A stretch of DNA of 46,556 nucleotides, taken from the NCBI GenBank assembly GCA_024276995.1, contig JAJRWB010000055.1, positions 1 through 46,556 of the forward strand, in the 5' to 3' direction. Positions 6,627 through 46,379 of this stretch are shown piece by piece (position 1 is the stretch's first letter; every line of letters begins with the position of its first letter). The notes under the pieces were generated by a model. That model worked only from the letters and a program-made list of their open reading frames with translations. It made no database searches and was not told the origin of the DNA. Position numbers and translations under genes: made by a program. The DNA comes from Candidatus Eiseniibacteriota bacterium (lineage in GTDB: Bacteria; Orphanbacterota; Orphanbacteria; Orphanbacterales; Orphanbacteraceae).

Positions 6627-8684
6627 TCAGCGTGCTCCGATGCCGCTCAATTCCTGTGCTTTCGAAAGCGCCAGGCGGCCTCGTCGTATATAGTTCATCG
6701 CCTTCTCGGCGCCGGGGTCGATGACGAGTACCTTCTCCCAGACGCCGATCGCCTCTTTGATGTGGCCCTCGGTGTAGAGATTCATTCCCTCGAACAGATA
6801 TGCCTGCTCGAGGTAGGAGGCGACGTTTTCCCAGCCGCCGTCGAGGTTGTAGACGAACTCGAAATAGCGTATCGCCTCGCCGCTCTTCCGGTTCTTGAGC
6901 ATGTCGAGGCCGAGGTCGTACATCCGCCCCGCCTCCTCCTTCTCCGCCGACGAGAGAATCTTCGCCGGGCGGTTCGTTTCCGTCGTGTTCCCCGCGCCCG
7001 CCGGCCCGTTGCGCTCGGCCGACGCGCTCTTCTCTTCCCTCTTCGCGCGACGAAGCTCGTACAGCAGGTCATCCCGCCCGGGCATGAGTTCGAGCGCCTC
7101 GGTGTACGCTTTCCGGGCGGCGCCGAAGTCGCCCCTCCTCTCGGCGCCCTTCGCTCTTTCCACGATCGCTTCGACCCGCACGGTGAGAAGGGAATCGATG
7201 CGGGCGAGGTAACGGGAGGCGTCGGCGTTGCCGGGATCGGCGTCGAGCGCCTTTTCGAACGAGGCTCGCGCCCCGGCGAAGTCGCCGAGAGCGAGCGCGC
7301 CGATTCCGCCGGTCATCAGGTCGGTCACCGCCCTCGTCTTCTCGCTCGTCCTGTCTAGCAGCGCGGTGGCCGCGTCGAGCGCTTCGGCGGCCCGGCCGTC
7401 GTCCACACCCGCGGCGATGGCGGCGCGGAATTCCCCGATTCCGTCGAGAAGCTTCCCGTCGCCGATTCGCTCTTTGCCGGCGGCGAGATGCTTTTCGTAG
7501 CGCGCCCGCGCGAGCGCGTGCTGCGCCGCTTCCCCGTCCGGGTCCCACAGGAGCGCCCTTTCGAACCAGATCTCCGCTTTTTCCCAGTTCCCACGCTTCA
7601 TTTCGCTTCGCCCCTTGGCGAGGTGACCGTCGATCTGCGACCGTTCCTTCTTCTCCAGTTCCTCCTCGGTTCTCTTCGCGAGGCGCTCATCGTCGCGCCG
7701 CGCCCGTTCGAGGCGAAGCGCGTCAAGATTCGGACCGAATCGCAGGATGAATTCCACCCTATGCGCCGTGCCCGGTTCTTGCATCGCGACGGCGTAGTCG
7801 ATGCGTCCCCCCCTGAGAGGAACGCCGATCCCGCCGGTCCACCCGTCTCCCCTTCCTCCGAAGCGCAGCGCGAGCCCGCCCGGAAGAAGTGTTTCCACGC
7901 CGAACGACCCCGCGGAGGCCACGGTGTTTCCCTGCTCCATCGATGCGACGAGGAGAACCTGGGTCACCGGTCTGCCGCGGAGGGGAATGGAGTACGAGAA
8001 GCCGGTCCGAATGAGGGTGGGGAATCTCTCTTCCGTCGATTCCAATGTAAGTTTCGGTTCAAGGGCGTTTCGAAGGGCGATGCCGAAGCCGAAGTTATCG
8101 GCCGACCAGGCGCTCCGATTCCGGCGGGGCGACAGGTAGAGGAAGCCGATATCCCCTCCCACCGAACTCGCCGAGCGTCCCGCGAGAGAGTGGGTTTCCA
8201 CCTTGAGGGACGCGCCGAACCGGGCGCCGCCGAAGGGAGGAAGTGCATATGTGAGGAGCCACTCGTTCTGCACATTCGAGAACTCGCCCGTAGGGGCGCC
8301 GTCGTCGTCGTAGCCGGAGATGCCCCCCAGGGCGTAGCGAAGATTGCCGAAGCCGATGGTGCCCAGGTCGAGCATCGGATGGATGTAACCGGCGTACGTG
8401 AAGCGGTTGCCGTCGGTGAAGGGCGCGGTGTAGAAGAGGGAGAATTCCTTTGAACCTTCCGCGCCGGCAGCCGCCGGATTCCACGCGAGCGACGCGGCAC
8501 CGCCGCCGAGTGCGACATACGCGCCCCCGAGGCTGAGCGCCCTCGCTCCCACGCCGTAGGCGAACGGCGAGAGAGTTCCCCCGTCGTTCGCGGCATGCAG
8601 GAGCGACGGGAGAAGCGCCGCAACGGCGAATAGGCCTCTAGTTGAGAACAGCGATCTTGTGGACCGCTTTTTCGCTCGTTCCAT
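6627..8684 (-). CDS. PorV/PorQ-like outer-membrane protein fused to TPR repeats
   Basis: 685 residues. A signal peptide (KKRSTRSLFSTRGLFAVAALLPSLLHA) is followed by a roughly 300-residue beta-barrel-like part of the PorV/PorQ (UPF0164-like) kind. The hallmark is the N-terminal run YGVGARALSLGGAYVALGGG then ASLAWNPAA. A charged, probably coiled segment follows (LERARRDDERLAKRTEEELEKK), and then TPR repeats fill about residues 330-685 (GNWEKAEIWFERALLWDPDG; GDFAGARASFEKALDADPGN; GHIKEAIGVWEKVLVIDPG). In Bacteroidetes, PorV carries cargo with C-terminal sorting domains during type IX secretion. Here the gene starts 47 bases inside the end of a giant protein with such a domain, so the two are probably translated together. 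The TPR tail is the unusual part, since PorV itself lacks one. Confidence 0.87.
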   Translation of the reverse strand: MERAKKRSTRSLFSTRGLFAVAALLPSLLHAANDGGTLSPFAYGVGARALSLGGAYVALGGGAASLAWNPAAAGAEGSKEFSLFYTAPFTDGNRFTYAGYIHPMLDLGTIGFGNLRYALGGISGYDDDGAPTGEFSNVQNEWLLTYALPPFGGARFGASLKVETHSLAGRSASSVGGDIGFLYLSPRRNRSAWSADNFGFGIALRNALEPKLTLESTEERFPTLIRTGFSYSIPLRGRPVTQVLLVASMEQGNTVASAGSFGVETLLPGGLALRFGGRGDGWTGGIGVPLRGGRIDYAVAMQEPGTAHRVEFILRFGPNLDALRLERARRDDERLAKRTEEELEKKERSQIDGHLAKGRSEMKRGNWEKAEIWFERALLWDPDGEAAQHALARARYEKHLAAGKERIGDGKLLDGIGEFRAAIAAGVDDGRAAEALDAATALLDRTSEKTRAVTDLMTGGIGALALGDFAGARASFEKALDADPGNADASRYLARIDSLLTVRVEAIVERAKGAERRGDFGAARKAYTEALELMPGRDDLLYELRRAKREEKSASAERNGPAGAGNTTETNRPAKILSSAEKEEAGRMYDLGLDMLKNRKSGEAIRYFEFVYNLDGGWENVASYLEQAYLFEGMNLYTEGHIKEAIGVWEKVLVIDPGAEKAMNYIRRGRLALSKAQELSGIGAR

Positions 8685-11600
8685 CTTCGTATCTCATTTC
8701 GATCACCGCGAGATAGCCGCCGTTGATCACGCGCCGTCCCGCGCCGTTCCTGCCGTCCCACACCGCTTCCACCACCCCGCTGCCGGCTACCGGCTCACGG
8801 AGGAGGACCACCGGCACGCCGAGGCCGGTGAAAATGGCGATTCTCGCTTCCCCCGCACCGCGCGCATAGAATGCGAATGTCGTCTTACCGAGTGCCGACG
8901 AAAACGGGTTCGGATAGTTCCGCAGACTCTTTTCAAAAGATTTATCTGAGAAATAAGTGTACGCCGACGGGTTCCGGCCGTCGTCACCGTCCGCCCTATC
9001 GAGGAATGGAATCTGCTCGGTGATCTCCGTATGATCGTCTTCGAAGCGGATCCGGAACGGTTCGGTCGCGGCGTCCTCGGCAATGTGGAGGGCGGCGACA
9101 ATCTCGATCGTATCGCCGACCGCCACCGGAAGAGAAGGCTCGAAATCGAAAACGACGAGATCCCCGCTCATCCTCCCCTCGGCGACGGCCGAATCGTTCC
9201 CGCCGGCGTACGCGGACGCGCCGGAAAGCCAGCGGGCCGCTTCGGCGTCATCCCCATTCGCGCCTTCCACTTCCAGCGAAAGCGACTCGAGGTGAAGATC
9301 GCTCCCCTCGCCGCCGCCGGGAACGAAAAGGCGGAATGTCATCGCGTCGTCCACTATGGAGCCGCCGGTCGAAAGTGCGGGAAGTTCGAGGTCTACCGCG
9401 TAGGTCAGCCTGTCGGAGAGTTCGACCACGTGGAATAGGGGCGTGGCGTAGTACGGTTTTTCGTCCGTGCCGAGACGGACAGAGGTCGCTTCTCCGTCAT
9501 TGCGGTCGACGACATCGATTCCCTCTCTCTCCGTTACGAAGCGGAAATATCCGCCCGGCGCGTCCGCCTTCAGGTCGATTTCCACGCCGACGAGGAGCGA
9601 ATCGCCCGGCTCGAGGGCGACGGCGCTCTCCGGTGCGAGGGTGACCGTATCGACGTCATCCACCGAAGGGGAGACCGAAGCGATCGCGTCGCCGTCGCGG
9701 ACGAGCTGGATCCTGTCGATGATCGATCGCACATCGACGCTTGATCCGTCATCTGATTCGAGACGGAGCCTCAGGCCGCGGAAGAGCACGGCGGAGAGCG
9801 AATCGCCCCCGTTGTGGCGGAGGAGAATATCGAAGGGATGGATTTCCGCCGCCCCCTGGAAGAGACTCGTCGATCCGTCGCCGTCCGCACCGGAAGCGAA
9901 GATCGAATCGGTGCGCGCCACGATCCGGGTGGATGGAGGCGGCGCCATGTCGAGGGCCACCAGAATCTCTTCACCGCTCGCGGCCGAGCAGGGGTCGACG
10001 TCGACCGTGTTGACACGAAAGGTTCCGATCGGCGCGGCGGGCGAAAGATCTCCTTCCACCGAGAGGGTGATCACATTGCTCGGAGGAAGGGTGATCTCAG
10101 GATCGAGATCGAACACGATCGAGTCGCCTCTCGCGCTCCAACCGTTGCCGGAGAAGCGGACGATGTCGCCGCTCACCATGCGGAGCGAATCGAACGGAAA
10201 GCCTCCTCCCCCCGTGAAGAGGGCGAGTGTCGTGACGGTGATGTCGGCGGTGCTTCCGGCGGTCCCCTCCGTGGTGAACGTCAGGTTCATCATCGGAACC
10301 GCCGTCGTGCCCCGGTTCGTCTCATCGGGGAAACGGTTCGCCACGTCCACCTCGAGGGCCGACGGAGGTTGGTAAAGATCGGTGGCTTCGGTGACGAAGG
10401 GGAAGTCGCCCTCCGCCGGAACCGTCCCGCCCGAGTTGGCGTCCACGGCGCGCACGACCGATTCGCTCGCGAGAACGACTCGAAAACGTCCGACGGAAGC
10501 AGTGTCGCTCATGTCGAGAAGGAGATTGATCGCGACACCGCTCCCGGGGGCGAGTCGCACCGGTGTGGAGAGGGGAATCGAAAGGGCGCCCGTCGAATCG
10601 GAGCGCGCCGTGGCGGTACCGATCTCTTCGCCCGTCCGGATCAGCCTAACGCTGTTCACGACGCCGGAGGGATCGATCGCCTTACCCTCTCCGTCGTCGA
10701 GGAGTAGGCCGATCGTATCGATTCGGATCGAAGCGGCGTCACTCGCCCCGGCATCGCCGTGTTCGAGCGAGATCACGAGGGCGGAGACATCGAGGGCCCC
10801 CACCGTGGTGGACGGGGGAAGTGTGGACACCGCTTCCACGTGGATCGATTCGGGCGTTTTCTGAATCCTCAGCGTGTTCGACTGCGCGGGAAGGGTCTGC
10901 ACCGCCTCGCCGGTCGGCCTTTCTCCCGCCGCCGATCCGCGGAAGAAGGCGGTACCCGGCGCGGAGGCGGTCGAGGTCCAGCGGAAGACGACCGATTCGT
11001 CCGGTTCGAGAGAGACGGGTGTCGAATCGGGACTCGACAAGATGAAAACCGAATCTCCTTCGATCACGAGGGCGCCCGGGGTCAGGCTGTCGATGGTTGT
11101 CGGGTTCAGGTAGCCGTGGTTGACCACGGTCATTTCGACGTCGAACACCTGGCCGACACTTACTTGTGACGGCAGCGTCGAAAGGGTCGCGAAAACAGGC
11201 GAGGTGGAGACCTGGAAGAGGGCGGGCGATTCGACGGAGCGGTCGATCGGTCCGTCGTTGGAAGACGCCATGGCGATGCCGTCTTCGGGGATCACCAAGC
11301 GGAACGTGGCGCCGTCGGCGGCGGTCGTGGCGATATCGACGCGTACCGAAAGCGTTTCGCCGGCAGAGGCGACAGGGATGCTGATCCCCTCTCTGACCCA
11401 CGACGAGCCGTCCCACACGAGGTCGCCCACGGCGGTTTCCGATGAGCCGCCGCTGAGGAGATGCATGGCGTCGAACTCCGAAGGCAGGAGCGTCCCGTCG
11501 GTCTGAAAATGAATCCCGGTGAGCGTGTCGTCGAGGCAGCCGTTCGGCGGGACGACGAAGCGGAAGACAAGCCGATCGTTTTCAGATGGACCAACGGCAC

Positions 11601-14600
11601 CGCCGGTGAGCGAAGGGAGACCGACTTGGGCGGCCGCCATGCCGTCCACCGGTCTTCCGTCTTCCGAACCGGAAAGGTGAAGGGAGCCCACCACCTGCCG
11701 GGAGGAAAGGAAGTTGAACGACGAGCCGTCGAGGATGCCCGCGTCGACCGTGTCGCCGTCGGCTACGCATCTCAGTCCCACGTCGACGGCCACGGTGAGG
11801 GTGCACGGTTCTCCCGGCACGATGGGGAGGGAGAAGTCGGAGAGAACGGCCGCCGACTCGATCATTCGCGCGGTGGCGAGAAGGGCGCCTCCGGGGGCGT
11901 CGTAGACCGTGTCGCTTCGCGACGCCGCCAGGAGGCGCACCCTTCGCGCCACCGAATCGGCCGCGATTCCCGCGGAACGGTTCGCCACCGAAAGGCCGGT
12001 GAGATATGCGGTATCCGAATAGACATTGGCGGCGAGGAAGCGGAACAGGGCGGCGCTCGTGTCGCCCGGAGACACCGGCCCGGCGAAGCCGCCCCGGAGC
12101 TTCGTGATCACGATCCTGTCGGCGCCCTGCGCGATCCACAGGTCGGTCGCCGTCACGGCGGAATCGACGGGACCGTCGTTGCCCGATGTCACGCCCGCGC
12201 CGTCCACCGGAAGCGAGAGGCGGATCGACCTTCCTTCCTCGGCGTCTTTGGAGAGGTCGATCGTTGCGAACAACCGCCTCCCTCCCGGCGGGATCGGAAG
12301 ATCAAGGCGGGACGCCGACCACAGGTCGCCGACCCACGAGAGCGCGCCGAGGGGGGTGTCGTCGTCCCCCTCGCCGCGGAAGACGCCGTCCCCTCCGTCG
12401 GCCCAGAGCTTCATTTCCGAAATATCGCCGCCCGCCTCGGCGTCGCCGAGATTCTCGATCATCAGCGTCTGCAGGGTATCGAGGAGATACCCGTCGGACG
12501 GGTAGTCGATTATGAGGGCGAGAGAATCGTCCGCTCCAGCCGGAAGGTTGTGGACGAACTCGCTGCTCATGCCGATCTGCGCCGCGATTACGCCGTCGAC
12601 AAAATGGCTCCCGGGGGAGTCGAGGGGAAACGATCCGAACACCGACGTGGTGTCATCGAACCGTATGGCGTTCGCGCTGTCGATCGCGATATCGAGCTGT
12701 TCTCCATCGGGCGCGGAGAAGAGGGATACGTCGCCGCACACGAGGACCGAAACGGTTTCCGCTTCCGCGATCTCGAGAGAAAGATCATCGAAAAGAGCGG
12801 TGTTCGAGGAGAACGAGGTGCTGTCGAGAACCGTTTCCCCGTAGTCCCATTCGCCGTCGCCGTCGGTGTCGCGTACGAGACGAAGAAGTCTCCATGTCGA
12901 ATCGAACTGCGCGGCGGAGCCTTCGCCCGCCGTAGTATTGGTCACCTCCACCGACGACAATGTCCTTGCCTGCTCCCAGAGATTCACCAGATCGAGCCGG
13001 AGAAGCGGGAGGGAGTCGGTGCCGGGATGGACGATCGAGCCGGGAATGAAGCGGGCCTCGGCGTGGATGTAGGGAGGCACGATTTCCACCGAGTTGTGGA
13101 GGGCGTTGAACGGGGCGGCATACGGGAGGCCGAACTCGTCTTCGCCTGTCATGTCGATGGTGAGGGGCCACGTACCCGGATCGAAATCGCTCGGTACGGC
13201 GCCGCTGTCGAAATAGAGGGTGGTCGTCTTGCCGTTCGCCTGGAGGTTCACCGGCGACACGAGAGGCGCGGAGAAGATCCGATCACCGTCGGTGAAGCGA
13301 AAGACCGTGCCCCCCTCGAGAAGGACGGCGGCGCTTCCGCGATTGCGCAGTGTGATGAGAAACGCGGCGGCGTCGCCCGGGCGTGTTTCGCCCGGGTAGA
13401 GGGAGCGCGCCACGTCCTCGATGAGCGGCGATCCCCCGACACGCCACCCGCCGAGACTGCCGGCATCGAGGTCGCCCACCGGGTCGGTATTCCCCTCTTC
13501 CGTTCCCGAAACCGATCCGTCGATCACCACGGTCGATCCGATGGACGCGGAGTCGGACACCGTCACCAGGAAGTCGAGGGTATCGGTCGCCCCGGGGGCG
13601 ATGTCGTGGGCCGCGATGCGCGCGGCGGCGTATGAATAGTCGCCCGACACGTTCGTTCCGTCCGAGGTGAAGCGAAGCGCTCCCGCCACGGAGTGAACAT
13701 TCTCCGTGCCGTCGTTTCGAACGACGAGACTCACCGGGATCCCCGTTTCACCGCGGCGCACCACGTCGCGATCCTCCACGACGGCGAGAAGCACGAGATC
13801 GCCCCCGCCGAGAACGGTGACCGAGACCGTGTCGGAAACGTCTCCCGCCGTCGCGATCACCGATCCACCGCCCGGCGCGGTCGCCGAAAAGAGACCGGAA
13901 CCGCTGATCGAGCCGATCGCTCCGGTAGTGCTCCATGAAACCGCGTCTCCGGTGACATTCCCTTCGCCGTCCACCGTGACGACTGTGAACGTCGTGTCGG
14001 CGTCGAGGGCGAGAATCGCGGCGGTGGGGGTGATCGTGATCGACCGCGCAGGCCCGGCGGTCACCACGATCGGTCCGCTCCTCCCGCTGATGTTCCCCAG
14101 CGTGACAGTCACCGAGTCGACGCCCGGTACGGTCGGGTCGAAGAGGCCGCTCGCGCCGTCGATCGTCCCGATCGCATCGCCGCCGCTCCAAGCGAGACCG
14201 GTGACGCCGGAGATCGGGTTATCCTCGCCGTCTCTCGCGATTGCCGTGAAGGTGATCGATCCTTCGATGTCCGTCGTATCGGTATGGGGGACCACTTCGA
14301 GAGACGCGACCGTTCCGTTGAGCACGGTAATCGACACCGTGTCGCGCACGTTTTCCGTTTCCCCTTCCACGAGAACGACTCCGGCGGTGTGGGGCGAAAA
14401 AACGCCTTCGGAGGAGATCGATCCATCGCCCGACACGATCGTCCACGTTACGATGGATGTGAAGGCGTTTCCATCGGCGTCGAACAGTTCGTATGTCAAT
14501 GTAATAATGTCGTCCGCCGTGATCGTCGTGTCGGTGGGGAGAATGGCGAGGGAATCGGCCGCGCCGCGGGTCACCGTGACCATTGAGCTGTCCGACAGCG

Positions 14601-16794
14601 CGCCCGACGTGGCGATCACGAAACCCGATCCGACGGCTCCGGCATCAAACACGCCCGATCCGCTTACCGAACCGATGCCGCCCGCCACGCTCCACGTCGG
14701 GCTCACGATCACCGGGAAGCCCCCGGTGTCGTAGCCCGTGGCGGTGAACGTCCGGGTCGAGTCGGCGTTCACCGTCGCCGACGACGGATTGACGACGATC
14801 GAGGCGAGTGCTCCGGATGTGACGGAGACGGTCGCGCTTCCCGTCACCCCTTCCGCGCTTCCCTTCACCGTGCCCGACCCGGGAGCAGACGGGTCGAACA
14901 CGCCGTCGTCGCCGATCGAGCCGGCCGTTCCCGAGAGCGACCAGGATATGGGCACGGTGAACGTGTTGCCGTCGCCGTCGCGGGCGGTGGCCCCGTACGG
15001 GACCGTTTCGTCGACGGTGATCGTCGTGTCGGCGGGGACGACGGTCAGCGTCGCCACCGCGCCATGGGTCACCGTGACGGCGACGGTATCCCGCTTCGAG
15101 CCGGAAAGAGCGATCACCTTCCCGCTCCCGACGGCTCCGGCGCTGAAGAGACCCGCGCCGTCGATCGTGCCGACGCCGCCGCTCACCGACCACGCAGGCG
15201 ATACGGGAGCGGACGTCCCGCCCGCGAAGTAGCCGACCGCCGTGTAGTTCACCGATTGGTCGGCGGTAACGGTCGTATCGGCCGGGGAAACGACGATGCT
15301 GTCGAGCGTGCCGGGCACGACGGTGAACGAGGCGGTGTCCGAAATCGCCCCCGAGCGGGCGGTCACGATTCCCGCGCCGGAGCCGCCGGGTACGAAAAGC
15401 CCCGCGTCGTCGATTACGCCGATCCCGACCGGCTCCGCCCACGAGTCGATGGCCGGCGTGAAGCTGTTGCCGTCGCCGTCCATTCCCGAGGCGGTGTATT
15501 GGAGCGAATCGCCGAAGGGGATCGTCGCGCTCGCCGGCGTCAATGTAAGAGCGACGAGCGCGCCGTGGCTCACGGTGACGGAGGAGGATCCGGTGATACC
15601 CGATGCGGTGGCGTTTACCGAGCCGCTTCCGACGGTGGTCGCATCGAAGAGCCCGTCGATATCGATCGAACCGATTCCGCCGCCGACGTCCCATGTCGGC
15701 GAGATCGCCACAGTGTTCTCCTTCGAGTCGAAGCCGGCGGCGGAAAAGGAAAGCGCCGAGTCGGCGGTCAACGTCGCGCTCGCCGGATCGACGGTTACCG
15801 TAGCGAGCGCGCCGTGGACGATAATCACTCTCGCCGAATCGGCCACGTCTCCGGAGCTTCCGATCACGTATGTCGTGCCCACCACGGTGGGCACGAAAAG
15901 CCCCGTGCCGTCGATTGTTCCAAGACCGGTCGGTTCGCTCCACGCGACCACGGGAGTGAACGGGTTCATGTCGGCATCGAAGGCGGAAGCGGCGAAGGAC
16001 AACGAGTCGTCCGCGCTGATCGTCGTGTCCGAAGGGGTGAGTATCAGCGTGCTCACCGCTCCCGCCGTTACGATGACCGAAGAGCTGTCCGAAAAGCTTC
16101 CCGTCGTGGCGATGATGGAGCCGCTCCCCACGGTGATCGGGTCGAATAGCCCGCCGGCGGTGATCGTTCCGATCCCCCCCGTCACGTTCCACGCCGGAAC
16201 GATCGGAACCGGATTACCCTTCGCGTCCGCTCCCGCTGCGGTGAAGGTGAGCGAGGAATCGGACGAAAGGGAAGCCGATCCGGGGGTCACCGTGACCGAC
16301 GCGAGCGCCCCGGCGGTGATCGTCGCGCCGGCGCTGTCGGCGATCCCTTCCGAAACGGCTACAATGAGCGCCGCGCCGGCACTCCCCGGCGTGTAGACGC
16401 CGCCGGCGTCGATCGAACCGAGTCCGGTCGGTTCCGACCACGCCACCGGCGAGGGAGTGAACATATTCCCGTCCCGATCCCATGCCTTGGCGCCGTATGG
16501 AATCGTGTCGTCCGCGGTGACCGAGGTGTCGGCGGGAAAAACGGCGAGAGAATCGACCGCCCCCCGGGTGACGGTGACGAGTGCCGTATCGTACACGCCG
16601 TCCTTCGTCGCGATCACCGAGCCGCTTCCCACCGTCGTTGGGTCGAAAAGGCCGGTCGTATCGATCGTTCCGATTCCGCCGGTGACGCTCCATGTCACCG
16701 CGAGCGGATCTTCCTGGCCTGAGCCGCTATAGCCGACCGCTTCGAAGGTGATCGAGGAATCGGTGGTGGCCGTCGCCGATGCCGGCGTGATCAC
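8638..16794 (-). CDS. Giant exported Ig-repeat protein with sorting domain (part after the amber codon)
   Basis: This is the 2718-codon stretch from a GTG at 16794 to TAG at 8638-8640. The GTG is only the first possible start after an in-frame TAG (16906-16908); there is no signal peptide here, and the frame is continuous with the exported N-terminal part at 16906-17934. Most likely it is one gene of 3099 codons. It contains about 12 bacterial Ig-like (BIG2-type) repeats of about 83 residues, then CARDB-like and other beta modules (VVEDRDVVRRGETGIPVSLV; several units with FRLVIPEDGI / IRLSLPVDGA). The C-terminal domain is FlgD-like: LRNYPNPFSSALGKTTFAF, WDGRNGAGRRV, INGGYLAVIEMRY. The composition (Ser, Thr, Asp, Gly, Val; very few Cys) fits a surface adhesin or stalk-like protein. 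The PorV-like gene overlaps its end. Confidence 0.9.
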   Translation of the reverse strand: MITPASATATTDSSITFEAVGYSGSGQEDPLAVTWSVTGGIGTIDTTGLFDPTTVGSGSVIATKDGVYDTALVTVTRGAVDSLAVFPADTSVTADDTIPYGAKAWDRDGNMFTPSPVAWSEPTGLGSIDAGGVYTPGSAGAALIVAVSEGIADSAGATITAGALASVTVTPGSASLSSDSSLTFTAAGADAKGNPVPIVPAWNVTGGIGTITAGGLFDPITVGSGSIIATTGSFSDSSSVIVTAGAVSTLILTPSDTTISADDSLSFAASAFDADMNPFTPVVAWSEPTGLGTIDGTGLFVPTVVGTTYVIGSSGDVADSARVIIVHGALATVTVDPASATLTADSALSFSAAGFDSKENTVAISPTWDVGGGIGSIDIDGLFDATTVGSGSVNATASGITGSSSVTVSHGALVALTLTPASATIPFGDSLQYTASGMDGDGNSFTPAIDSWAEPVGIGVIDDAGLFVPGGSGAGIVTARSGAISDTASFTVVPGTLDSIVVSPADTTVTADQSVNYTAVGYFAGGTSAPVSPAWSVSGGVGTIDGAGLFSAGAVGSGKVIALSGSKRDTVAVTVTHGAVATLTVVPADTTITVDETVPYGATARDGDGNTFTVPISWSLSGTAGSIGDDGVFDPSAPGSGTVKGSAEGVTGSATVSVTSGALASIVVNPSSATVNADSTRTFTATGYDTGGFPVIVSPTWSVAGGIGSVSGSGVFDAGAVGSGFVIATSGALSDSSMVTVTRGAADSLAILPTDTTITADDIITLTYELFDADGNAFTSIVTWTIVSGDGSISSEGVFSPHTAGVVLVEGETENVRDTVSITVLNGTVASLEVVPHTDTTDIEGSITFTAIARDGEDNPISGVTGLAWSGGDAIGTIDGASGLFDPTVPGVDSVTVTLGNISGRSGPIVVTAGPARSITITPTAAILALDADTTFTVVTVDGEGNVTGDAVSWSTTGAIGSISGSGLFSATAPGGGSVIATAGDVSDTVSVTVLGGGDLVLLAVVEDRDVVRRGETGIPVSLVVRNDGTENVHSVAGALRFTSDGTNVSGDYSYAAARIAAHDIAPGATDTLDFLVTVSDSASIGSTVVIDGSVSGTEEGNTDPVGDLDAGSLGGWRVGGSPLIEDVARSLYPGETRPGDAAAFLITLRNRGSAAVLLEGGTVFRFTDGDRIFSAPLVSPVNLQANGKTTTLYFDSGAVPSDFDPGTWPLTIDMTGEDEFGLPYAAPFNALHNSVEIVPPYIHAEARFIPGSIVHPGTDSLPLLRLDLVNLWEQARTLSSVEVTNTTAGEGSAAQFDSTWRLLRLVRDTDGDGEWDYGETVLDSTSFSSNTALFDDLSLEIAEAETVSVLVCGDVSLFSAPDGEQLDIAIDSANAIRFDDTTSVFGSFPLDSPGSHFVDGVIAAQIGMSSEFVHNLPAGADDSLALIIDYPSDGYLLDTLQTLMIENLGDAEAGGDISEMKLWADGGDGVFRGEGDDDTPLGALSWVGDLWSASRLDLPIPPGGRRLFATIDLSKDAEEGRSIRLSLPVDGAGVTSGNDGPVDSAVTATDLWIAQGADRIVITKLRGGFAGPVSPGDTSAALFRFLAANVYSDTAYLTGLSVANRSAGIAADSVARRVRLLAASRSDTVYDAPGGALLATARMIESAAVLSDFSLPIVPGEPCTLTVAVDVGLRCVADGDTVDAGILDGSSFNFLSSRQVVGSLHLSGSEDGRPVDGMAAAQVGLPSLTGGAVGPSENDRLVFRFVVPPNGCLDDTLTGIHFQTDGTLLPSEFDAMHLLSGGSSETAVGDLVWDGSSWVREGISIPVASAGETLSVRVDIATTAADGATFRLVIPEDGIAMASSNDGPIDRSVESPALFQVSTSPVFATLSTLPSQVSVGQVFDVEMTVVNHGYLNPTTIDSLTPGALVIEGDSVFILSSPDSTPVSLEPDESVVFRWTSTASAPGTAFFRGSAAGERPTGEAVQTLPAQSNTLRIQKTPESIHVEAVSTLPPSTTVGALDVSALVISLEHGDAGASDAASIRIDTIGLLLDDGEGKAIDPSGVVNSVRLIRTGEEIGTATARSDSTGALSIPLSTPVRLAPGSGVAINLLLDMSDTASVGRFRVVLASESVVRAVDANSGGTVPAEGDFPFVTEATDLYQPPSALEVDVANRFPDETNRGTTAVPMMNLTFTTEGTAGSTADITVTTLALFTGGGGFPFDSLRMVSGDIVRFSGNGWSARGDSIVFDLDPEITLPPSNVITLSVEGDLSPAAPIGTFRVNTVDVDPCSAASGEEILVALDMAPPPSTRIVARTDSIFASGADGDGSTSLFQGAAEIHPFDILLRHNGGDSLSAVLFRGLRLRLESDDGSSVDVRSIIDRIQLVRDGDAIASVSPSVDDVDTVTLAPESAVALEPGDSLLVGVEIDLKADAPGGYFRFVTEREGIDVVDRNDGEATSVRLGTDEKPYYATPLFHVVELSDRLTYAVDLELPALSTGGSIVDDAMTFRLFVPGGGEGSDLHLESLSLEVEGANGDDAEAARWLSGASAYAGGNDSAVAEGRMSGDLVVFDFEPSLPVAVGDTIEIVAALHIAEDAATEPFRIRFEDDHTEITEQIPFLDRADGDDGRNPSAYTYFSDKSFEKSLRNYPNPFSSALGKTTFAFYARGAGEARIAIFTGLGVPVVLLREPVAGSGVVEAVWDGRNGAGRRVINGGYLAVIEMRYEDGTSEKAVHKIAVLN

Positions 16795-37805: not shown

Positions 37806-41141
<3,336 letters not shown>

Positions 41142-42390: not shown

Positions 42391-43712
42391 CGCAGCTCCT
42401 TGTCGATCAGTTGCCCCGGTTCCGGGTTCTTCGGGTCCGCCGCCCCCCACGCCTTCGCGTACGCCTTCGCACGGTCGCCGTCCCCTTCGAAGCGGAGCAT
42501 CCGAATTGCCTCCCTGTACGCGTCGCGCATCCCGTCTTCATCGCCGATCCGGCCGAATTCGTTCGCCGCCATCCATAGGACGGCCGGGTAATTCGACATG
42601 AGCCTTCGCACGGCGGAGCGGGCGCCCCAGGGAAAGGAGAAATCGGTTGCGCTCTCCATGCGGAACCGGTTGTGGTAGAGTCGCATCGTGCGCGCCGCGT
42701 CGATACCGATCTCCTCTTCTCCTTCCGCCGGCCTGTCGCCGGGAATCACCCTCCAGAGAATGCCCTCCAGTTCCCGGTTCGATGAAGCGTATTCGAGAGG
42801 CTCCGGCGCGACGGTCACGGCGAAGTAGACGGGCTTTTTCCACGCCCCCTCGACGGCGCGGTCGACGACCTTCTTCATGAGGAATATACCGAACGTCCGC
42901 TCCTTCGTGCCGGAGTTCCACTCCTTCTTCCACCGGCGGATCTCCTTCTCGGTGACCGGGCCGTCGCCGTCGAAGCGACGAACGAGGGCTTCCACCGCAT
43001 ACGACGGATAATTCAGAAGAGAGAGGTTGACGATGCTGACGTCCTCGCGGATCCCGAAGCGCGCGCGGATCGCCTCGGGGGGGTAGGTATCATTGTCGCC
43101 GTTGGTGAAGATGATCGCGCCGGGCCGGGCGCTCTGGAGCATGTTGTAGCCGAAGTCGAGGAGCGGCGCCGGAATGCCTCCCTTGTCGATGAGAGCGCCG
43201 AGGTGCCGCTCGGCGTCCGCGATTCGGCCCTGGGGAAGGGTGATCGACCAGAGGGTGAAGTGGGGGTACGGCCAATCGGGCGCGAGCCGGACCGCCCGGA
43301 GGGCGAGCTTCTCCGCCTTGCGGAAAGAGGCGAACCGTTCCTCATCGCCCGCGTTGTAGGAAAACCGGTCCGCCATGGCGGCGAGCGCCTCGGGGCAGTC
43401 CGGATCGATTTCGTATGCTTTCTCGATCAGCTTCGCCCTCTCCTCGAGGGAGGCGCTCCCTTCGTAGCGCATCGCCCGCGCCTTCTGGACGTACGCCACC
43501 GCCGACGCGGGGTGTTTCGCGATATAGCCGTCCCACAGCCGGATCAGTTTTCCGTACTCCTCGCCGGTGAGAATCCTGTCGCGCAGCGATTTCACCTCCG
43601 GCGGCATGCCGGGGAGCATCGATGGCGTGCCGGCGCGAACGCGGGGAGGGAGGGCGGCGGCCATGAGAAGGGCCGCCAACACGGCGATCGGGAACCTCGT
43701 AATCGGTTTCAT
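42387..43712 (-). CDS. Exported TPR protein with the TNGDNDTYP domain otherwise found in DUF2723 proteins
   Basis: 441 residues from ATG 43712 (AAAGGAA upstream). Signal peptide ([22 protein letters not shown]), then TPR-like helices ([60 protein letters not shown]). Around 190-240 is [20 protein letters not shown] followed by [13 protein letters not shown]. This block is characteristic of the soluble part of large DUF2723 membrane proteins (proposed protein O-mannosyltransferase relatives), here without the membrane domain. Its TGA overlaps the sigma factor start (GTGA), so the two are translationally coupled. The function is unknown; it may be the sensory or effector partner of the sigma system. 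Confidence 0.83.
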
Positions 43713-43806
43713 CGGTTTCCTTTCTTTCGTTATGGTTGCTCTCACACCGTCACCCGAATAACGTTCGATCGGGGTGATTCGTTGAGTGAATCGCATCGTC
43801 CTCCCC

Positions 43807-43835
43807 TTGACGCCGGCGGGTTGCTGGTCGATGAT
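43807..43835 (+). promoter_or_regulatory. Promoter of the AIM24-like gene
   Basis: TTGACG (43807-43812), 17-base spacer, GATGAT (43830-43835). Predicted start near 43842, with a leader of about 33 bases that includes GGAGGAA. Confidence 0.55.
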
Positions 43836-43874
43836 GGATCTCTGATCCACGCGTCTTTCCATGGAGGAATTCGA

Positions 43875-44660
43875 ATGAAATGCCATGAAGTCGATTACGA
43901 AATCTTCGGCGATGATATGCAAGTGGTGGAGGTGGAACTCGACCCGAACGAAACGGTGGTCGCCGAGGCGGGCGCCATGAACTGGATGGACGACGGTGTC
44001 GGTTTCGAGGCGCGCATGGGCGACGGCTCGAAGGATGATGGCTTCGTCGGAAAGCTGCTCAGTGCCGGCAAGCGGGTGATCACCGGCGAGTCGATCTTCA
44101 TGACCCATTTCACGAATAACGGGTCCGGGAAGAAACGCGTCGCCTTCGCTGCGCCCTACCCGGGAAAGATCGTGCCCCTCGACATGAGCGCCATCGGCGG
44201 AGAGCTGATCTGCCAGAAGGATGCCTTCCTCTGCGCGGCGTTCGGATCGGAACTCGACATCGCGTTCACCCGGCGGCTCGGCACCGGCTTTTTCGGCGGC
44301 GAGGGATTCATCCTGCAGCGGATCCGCGGCGACGGCATGGCGTTCGTCCACGCCGGCGGCACGGTGCTCGAGCGACGGCTGAAAGGCGAAGTGCTGAAGG
44401 TGGATACAGGGTGTATCGTCGGCTTCACGTCGGGCATCGACTACAACATCGAGAGGGCCGGAAGCCTGAAGTCGATGTTCTTCGGTGGTGAAGGACTCTT
44501 CCTCGCCACGCTGCGCGGCACGGGAACGGTCTACCTCCAGAGCCTTCCCTTTTCGCGCATGGCCGATCGCATTCTCGCCCACGCGCCGCGCGCGGGGGGA
44601 CGCCGCAAGGGGGAAGGGTCGGTGCTCGGTCAGCTGGGGAACCTGCTCGACGGCGACTGA
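43875..44660 (+). CDS. AIM24/TIGR00266-family protein
   Basis: 261 residues. ATG 43875 is fixed by GGAGGAA seven bases upstream; the open frame extends much further left but without signals. Family marks: [108 protein letters not shown]. These are trimeric beta-barrel cytoplasmic proteins of unclear role, related to mitochondrial Aim24. It is followed after 14 bases by the LTD lipoprotein gene. No export signal. Confidence 0.93.
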
Positions 44661-44674
44661 CGGGAGGATCGGCG

Positions 44675-45736
44675 ATGATGGCGGATCGTGGAAGAGGGCG
44701 GCCGTCCGTTCGCCGGGCGGCCGTCTGCCTGGCGGCGTACCTTTTGGGCGCCGGTTGCGGCGGCAATTCCCCGACCGGCCCGGGGGAGAGCGATCTCGAC
44801 ATCTTCATCAATGAATTTCTCGCCTCCAACGCCACCGGCATGATCGATCCCGATTTCGGCGAGCAGGGCGATTGGATCGAGCTGTACAACGGCGGCGCGG
44901 CGGAGGTCGATCTCACCGGTTTTCACATGACCGACGACCTGTCGAACCGGCGCGTATGGGAGTTTCCACCGGGCGCGACCATCGAAGCGGACGGCTTTCT
45001 GATCGTCTGGGCGGATGGGAAGAACCTCGTCGCCGAGGCGATCCACACCGGTTTCAAGCTCTCTTCAGCGGGCGAGGCGATCGGGTTGTACGACGGGAAT
45101 CTCGCCCGCGTCGACGAAGTCTCTTTCGGTGTCCAGTCGACCGACGTTTCGACGGGGCGAAGCGCCGACGGGGGAAGCGCATTCATCGCTTTCGACCGTC
45201 CGACGCCGGGAACGTCGAACCTCCTTGCACCGCCCGAAGGCCCGGGCGGCGTGCGGATCAACGAATTCCTCGCGTCGAACGACAGCGCGAATACCGATCC
45301 CGACTTCGGTCGCCACGGCGACTGGATCGAGCTTTACAACACCGGTGACTCCGCCGTCGCTCTTGGCGGGTGGACGATCACCGATGATCTCGGCGATCCG
45401 GCCCGCTGGACGATTCCCGGCGGAATCTCGATCGCCCCTTCCGGTTTCCTGGTAGTGTGGGCCGACGGGCGCGATACCGTCGCCGCCGCGCTTCACGCGT
45501 CCTTCCGGCTCAGCCGCTCGGGCGAGGAGATCGGTCTCTTCACGCCCTCTTCCGCCATGGTCGACACGGTGGTATTCGGCGGGCAGGCGGCCGATATCTC
45601 CGCGGCGAGAGTGCCGGACGGAACCGGCGCATGGCGGAGCCTCGATCCCCCCACGCCGGGCGAAACGAACGGTGCGGCGAAGGGGGCACGAACCGCCACG
45701 CGCTCCGCCGTTGTCATCGGCGGGAGGGTGAGGTAG
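44675..45736 (+). CDS. Lipoprotein with two lamin-tail (LTD) domains
   Basis: 353 residues; GGGAGG upstream of ATG 44675 (a second ATG follows at 44678). The lipobox LLGAGC places the lipid-modified Cys at residue 28, followed by a Gly/Ser/Pro linker. Two tandem lamin-tail-like immunoglobulin domains follow at about 42-175 and 190-330. They are clear duplicates: INEFLASNATGMIDPDFGEQ/INEFLASNDSANTDPDFGRH, GDWIELYNGG/GDWIELYNTG, GFLIVWADGK/GFLVVWADGR, RPTPGTSN/PPTPGETN. LTD domains in bacterial envelope proteins are structural or ligand-binding. A short basic tail ends the protein. Confidence 0.92.
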   Translation: MMADRGRGRPSVRRAAVCLAAYLLGAGCGGNSPTGPGESDLDIFINEFLASNATGMIDPDFGEQGDWIELYNGGAAEVDLTGFHMTDDLSNRRVWEFPPGATIEADGFLIVWADGKNLVAEAIHTGFKLSSAGEAIGLYDGNLARVDEVSFGVQSTDVSTGRSADGGSAFIAFDRPTPGTSNLLAPPEGPGGVRINEFLASNDSANTDPDFGRHGDWIELYNTGDSAVALGGWTITDDLGDPARWTIPGGISIAPSGFLVVWADGRDTVAAALHASFRLSRSGEEIGLFTPSSAMVDTVVFGGQAADISAARVPDGTGAWRSLDPPTPGETNGAAKGARTATRSAVVIGGRVR

Positions 45737-45779: not shown

Positions 45780-46379
45780 ATGCGATTCCGAAGCATAATA
45801 CCGATTCTGATCTCCTGGGCGGCGCTCTTCGCCGGTTGCAACGGCGACAAGACGACCGAGCCTTCCGGCGACGGCGGTGAGGGCGTTTCGTGCGCGGGCG
45901 ACAGCTCCGCCGTGATCGACACGACGGCGATCGCCGATTTCTCCCTTACCGATGTGAACGCCGGCTCGTCGACCTTCGGGAAGGAGGTTTCGCCCCGCCA
46001 ATATCTGCAGAAATACTCGGCGTGGTACTTCGGCAACTCGACGTGAGGTTACTGCCGTAGCCAGTTCGGCTACCTCGACCAGATGCAAAAGGAACTCGAT
46101 GCGGCGAAAACCGGTGTGGAGATCCGTATTCTCGGTGTGAACCACATTGGTGAGGAGAGCACCAACGACCTAATGACCGACGGGCGCACCATCCCCTGGC
46201 TCCAAGATACGGCGGCCGATTCGGTGTGGGATCTGTGGAATATCATTTACAGGGATGTTGTGATTCTCGACGAGGGAAATATCCCCGTGGCGGTCTACAA
46301 CCTGACCCTCCACGATCTCGGCAAGCCGAATAACTACGACTGCCTGAAATCGATCCTCACCGACCTCGCCAATCCCTGA
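45780..46379 (+). CDS. Thioredoxin-like lipoprotein selenoprotein (Sec at codon 89)
   Basis: 199 residues when TGA 46044-46046 is read as selenocysteine. ATG 45780 has GGGAG upstream and gives a lipoprotein signal (MRFRSIIPILISWAALFAGC, lipobox LFAGC, lipidated Cys20). A linker follows (NGDKTTEPSGDGG), then FSLTDVNAGSSTFGKEVSPR and the redox site YFGNST-U-GYCRSQFGYLDQM, i.e. U-x-x-C in a thioredoxin-fold position before a helix. The fold continues with VEIRILGVNHI, the likely cis-Pro loop GRTIPWLQD and the strand pair DVVILDEGNIPVAVYNL. The frame remains open for 110 codons past the TGA, and a perfect stem-loop lies just after it. It should be a membrane-attached, periplasm-facing thiol/selenol oxidoreductase. 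Plain gene callers would give two fragments split at the TGA. Sec in an exported lipoprotein is uncommon. Confidence 0.87.
46047..46080 (+). promoter_or_regulatory. Bacterial SECIS element of the lipoprotein selenoprotein
   Basis: After the TGA (46044-46046), GTAGCC (46057-46062) pairs perfectly with GGCTAC (46068-46073) around the loop AGTTC. GGT (46047-46049) can pair with ACC (46078-46080) as a lower stem. The loop starts 16 bases after the TGA with G in second place. It resembles the element of the ArsC-like gene (loop AGTTTC). Confidence 0.8.

Follow-up and report, generated by a model that had tools for sequence, protein, structure and literature searches.

The window, a stretch of 46,556 nucleotides that makes up an entire contig (C37), carries near its end a gene that very probably encodes a bacterial selenoprotein read through an internal UGA, a membrane-anchored thioredoxin-like enzyme to judge from its sequence. 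As the original prediction had described, one frame runs from a lipoprotein signal to a regular stop (TGA 46377-46379) and is broken only by TGA 46044-46046. Its translation bears this out, since the read-through product of 45780-46379, MRFRSIIPILISWAALFAGC...STUGYCRSQF..., contains no TGA apart from codon 89 and the terminus. An annotation run that takes UGA solely as a stop would leave two short fragments here. The features considered below, with the basis for each, are as follows.

43203-44660: AIM24-family gene, preceding the lamin-tail-domain lipoprotein gene
44675-45736: lamin-tail-domain lipoprotein gene with two repeats, ahead of the selenoprotein gene
45780-46379, forward strand: probable selenoprotein gene, 199 residues with predicted Sec at 89 (read-through translation, NF053656 match, homologues)
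45780-45839, forward strand: predicted signal peptide of a lipoprotein, Cys-20 being the last residue of the lipobox LFAGC (sequence, read by eye)
46044-46046, forward strand: UGA codon, predicted selenocysteine 89, first position of U-G-Y-C (45 of the 50 distinct homologous domains have TGA here)
46053-46055, forward strand: Cys-92, the Cys of the U-x-x-C site (invariant in 48 of 48 Sec/Cys members)
46057-46073, forward strand: probable SECIS stem-loop, 6 bp GTAGCC/GGCTAC, loop AGUUC (covariation)
46251-46256, forward strand: Arg-158 Asp-159, likely in the position taken by the cis-proline of thioredoxins (Arg in 47 and Asp in 48 of 48 members; alignment with PDB 2lrn)

The gene and the genome that carries it

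Residues 16-20 of the product, LFAGC, satisfy the lipobox pattern L-x-[AG]-[AG]-C when read by eye, in agreement with the lipoprotein signal first proposed, and comparable lipoboxes, also read by eye, directly precede the domain in L031, L032, L033, L034, L036, L038, L098, L102, and L109. The internal TGA does occupy the first position of a U-x-x-C site (STUGYCRSQ, residues 87-95), and Cys-92 is encoded by a TGC that lies downstream of the TGA and ahead of the stem. No conserved operon was found across the loci, and the gene has neither a redox partner nearby nor a conserved redox neighbor that would indicate one. In a related genome (L034) the selenoprotein gene sits between the AIM24 and lamin-tail-domain genes, an order that differs from that in the window, and another lipoprotein-like gene comes after it in L032, L102, and L109. 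Elsewhere in the window, the reverse strand holds a very large frame (8638-16794) that encodes 2718 aa and includes bacterial Ig-like (Big_2) domains, and a C-terminal gene piece cut by the contig end (46396-46554), which may come from a prolyl oligopeptidase/oligopeptidase B.

Much of the machinery for Sec insertion that the original prediction called for is encoded in the genome: tRNA-Sec (selC, 71.2 bits, anticodon TCA), selB (359 bits), and selD (380 bits) are present, and selA is present yet split by a frameshift into two overlapping frames, the larger piece scoring 410 bits. The selD gene (G000:C49:5158-6081, L030) has an in-frame TGA of its own (KAGU), presumably at the known position, and would give this genome a second selenoprotein gene. 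The selA locus (G000:C12:38616-39982, L027) consists of frames at C12:39035-39982 and 38616-39059, split around 39035-39059, and the split reflects an error in the assembly or damage to the gene; selA is intact in the related genome G004. We also considered the presence of selA as a discriminator and rejected it because most of the sampled genomes of these groups possess the gene, that is, 38 of 41 TGA carriers and 32 of 37 genomes with no match above the cut-off.

Conservation of the UGA codon and its hairpin

On its own, an open frame with a stem behind the TGA is weak evidence, because the window DNA is 64% GC and the pattern recurs within it. In the window, 38 TGA codons have an open stretch of 80 codons or more upstream, counted from a start, and of 100 or more downstream; two of these TGA codons are followed at a similar distance by a perfect 6-bp stem with a loop of 4-7 bases. 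The fold energy of the single sequence is ordinary and uninformative (z = -0.52), and an Rfam scan of the window returned no match reaching the gathering score. It is homology, together with covariation in the hairpin, that takes the case well beyond chance.

A scan of public genomes for relatives found 10 loci. In searches for the family, 2 of 7 genomes from the phylum to which the window belongs held a match above the cut-off, and the phyla of a Myxococcales, a Planctomycetaceae, and a Krumholzibacteriia locus gave such matches in 13 of 195, 15 of 392, and 13 of 80 genomes, respectively; the viral contigs and plasmids searched held no relatives. The resulting homologue set comprises 50 distinct domain copies that score above 100 bits with a profile built in this analysis. 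They are spread over four or more phyla, including Krumholzibacteriota, Myxococcota, Planctomycetota, and the small phylum of the window itself. The window protein is 36-59% identical to 47 homologues. At the position of Sec-89, 45 of the 50 domains have TGA, three have Cys (L040, L061, and L076), and two have Ser, and on a tree of the domains these labels require three changes. Homologues with Cys at position 89, which the original prediction had proposed to look for, thus exist, and rather than ending at the TGA the family is conserved past it. Consistent with this, pN/pS between the window and four relatives is 0.37-0.54 before the TGA and 0.40-0.49 after it, the comparison being restricted to these pairs because synonymous sites are close to saturation over the whole set. 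The two Ser-type domains (SLYA and SIYA) are degenerate and belong to tandem proteins (L070 and L071), in which each comes first, directly upstream of a Sec-type domain in one frame.

The hairpin consists of a perfect 6-bp stem, GTAGCC (46057-46062) and GGCTAC (46068-46073), closing the loop AGTTC (46063-46067). Stem and loop are exactly as first reported, but the distance of 16 bases from the TGA given with them suits the loop and not the stem, which begins 10 bases after the TGA. We assessed covariation over the 44 distinct TGA sequences, with 500 shuffles and slid windows as controls. Pairing at the six stem positions holds in 94.3% of cells, versus 74.5% in shuffled and at most 54.5% in slid controls, and 58 cells are changed on both sides, versus 19.7 in the shuffles, none of which (0/500) reaches as high a count. 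Because the sequences are related, the shuffle figures should not be read as probabilities; relatedness is retained in the slid controls, and these agree with the shuffles in direction. Five of the six pairs covary, a count that is unexceptional among the shuffles (77/500), and we therefore place weight on the paired cells and the double changes. Stem variants among the TGA members include GTAGCC/GGCTAC, GTGTCC/GGACAC, GCGACC/GGTCGC, and GGAGTC/GACTCC, and just 3-4 of the six pairs form in the Cys and Ser copies (n = 5). The element also fits the published model of bacterial SECIS elements (a stem of 6 bp and a 5-nt loop, AGUUC, whose distance from the UGA is 16 nt), which together with its covariation supports the earlier reading of the hairpin as the element that bacterial Sec insertion needs, a SECIS element.

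Family, fold, and active site

The window protein matches the NCBIfam model NF053656, redoxin_TUGYCR (“TUGYCR motif thioredoxin fold (seleno)protein”), with 219.9 bits against a cut-off of 100; the match covers residues 52-195 of the protein and positions 2-145 of the 146 in the model, and all 48 of the Sec/Cys members scanned match it as well. The whole domain, the T-[UC]-G-Y-C-R motif, and the alternation of Sec with Cys are shared, with no essential difference. The product is very probably a Sec-containing member of redoxin_TUGYCR. The suggestion that the gene may represent a new selenoprotein group is hence unsupported: by its sequence it is an additional member of a group that curators had already named. 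The model name states no function. A published description of the family could exist, although its name was not found in the literature searched, and neither the accession nor the motif occurs in a May 2026 review of prokaryotic selenoproteins (PMC13188914). During the search of the phylum of the Myxococcales locus we also met a sister group (L063:1501-1902 and, on the reverse strand, L064:1501-1899 and L057:1504-1848) with GFU-[TV]-x-C in which U is a TGA, a hairpin GGTCCC..GGGA[TC]C downstream of the TGA, and a Cys version in L067. Its scores against NF053656 are below the cut-off (37-49 bits), and it may be an unnamed selenoprotein group.

The thioredoxin-like site named in the original prediction is matched by the predicted structure. 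AlphaFold2 (11 sequences; mean pLDDT 81.8, block means mostly at least 88 across residues 51-190) gives the order strand-helix-strand-helix-strand-strand-helix, with Sec-89 immediately before helix 90-109, and the best Foldseek matches, with E values of about 1e-8 to 1e-7, are ResA, TlpA/DsbE-like proteins, and Etrx lipoproteins; SCO1 structures were matched too. A search of the PDB by sequence gave no significant match. The domain is thus predicted to adopt a thioredoxin fold like that of ResA/TlpA, in which Sec-89 takes the place of the first Cys. Extracytoplasmic thioredoxins of the ResA/TlpA/CcmG type, including pneumococcal Etrx1/2, share this fold and have two redox residues spaced by two, and several are lipoproteins or membrane-anchored, as is predicted for the window protein, which differs from them in having Sec for the first Cys and apparently Arg-Asp for the cis-proline, at 11-23% identity.

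Invariant or nearly invariant residues of the family are Y83, F84, U/C89, C92, N121, P139, W153, R158, and D159. In an alignment of weak score, R158 falls opposite the Pro of “GFPHIILVD” in PDB 2lrn, so that the classical cis-proline of thioredoxin and ResA, before a strand that faces the active site, would be absent and replaced by Arg in 47 of 48 members. Given that score, replacement of the cis-proline by Arg-Asp in the TUGYCR family is likely rather than proven, and ordinary thioredoxin chemistry is accordingly not assured.

Mechanism and alternative readings

We propose that SelB and tRNA-Sec, directed by the hairpin 10 bases past the UGA, would insert selenocysteine at codon 89, as the machinery, the hairpin, and the homologues suggest. 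Given the signal peptide and lipobox, the mature protein would be held at the outer side of a membrane by a lipidated Cys-20, with Sec-89 and Cys-92 predicted to lie where the first long helix of the thioredoxin domain begins. There the protein would most likely act as a thiol/selenol oxidoreductase, alternating between a selenenylsulfide and the reduced pair, its putative targets being envelope disulfides or peroxides reduced by Sec-89/Cys-92. The exported, membrane-tethered selenol oxidoreductase activity of the original prediction is plausible, and we lean toward a disulfide-oxidoreductase reaction for the TUGYCR protein.

An envelope selenol/thiol oxidoreductase is our best reading, and a peroxidase its main rival. 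The two differ in the reaction only, and our confidence in the one overlaps with that in the other. A peroxiredoxin-like thiol peroxidase, in which Sec-89/Cys-92 and the conserved Arg-158 act on envelope peroxides and not on protein disulfides, is possible but the more doubtful of the two. An Arg at the place of the cis-proline resembles the stretch R-x-x-F-[IV]-[IV]-D of peroxiredoxins, and weak matches to Pfam AhpC-TSA (PF00578) occur in 26 of 48 members; the window protein itself, however, scores below the gathering threshold of that model (19.6 against 26), and the closest folds are of the ResA/TlpA type. Prx-like thiol:disulfide oxidoreductase selenoproteins with UxxC (PF00578) are listed in Table 1 of PMC13188914 and share UxxC within an AhpC/TSA-like thioredoxin fold, but the window protein, below that gathering score, belongs to an NCBIfam model of its own. 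That a Sec-first envelope enzyme with Arg-Asp for the cis-proline carries out a reaction of no described thioredoxin-fold selenoprotein seems unlikely to us.

It is considerably less probable that the selenol and thiol bind metal in a Sco-like copper-handling protein. Weak SCO1-SenC (PF02630) matches in 16 of 48 members and the SCO1 structures among the Foldseek matches point that way, but the site is UxxC instead of CxxxC, the window protein reaches 13.1 against a cut-off of 22.8, and the His found three residues ahead of Sec in 38 of 48 members is Asn in the window protein. Hardly credible is an ordinary stop or a pseudogene, in which the in-frame TGA would end an 88-residue protein and the remainder would be a leftover, as a split selA might suggest if it signaled lost Sec insertion in this genome, because TGA recurs at the same codon in the homologous domains with Cys in others, the sequence is conserved past it, and the hairpin covaries.

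With this gene, a named but apparently unpublished and uncharacterized family gains a member that is well supported, including by comparative evidence for its SECIS element. Within the TUGYCR family TGA is far commoner than Cys (45 versus 3), and the active-site proline seems to have been replaced by Arg-Asp.
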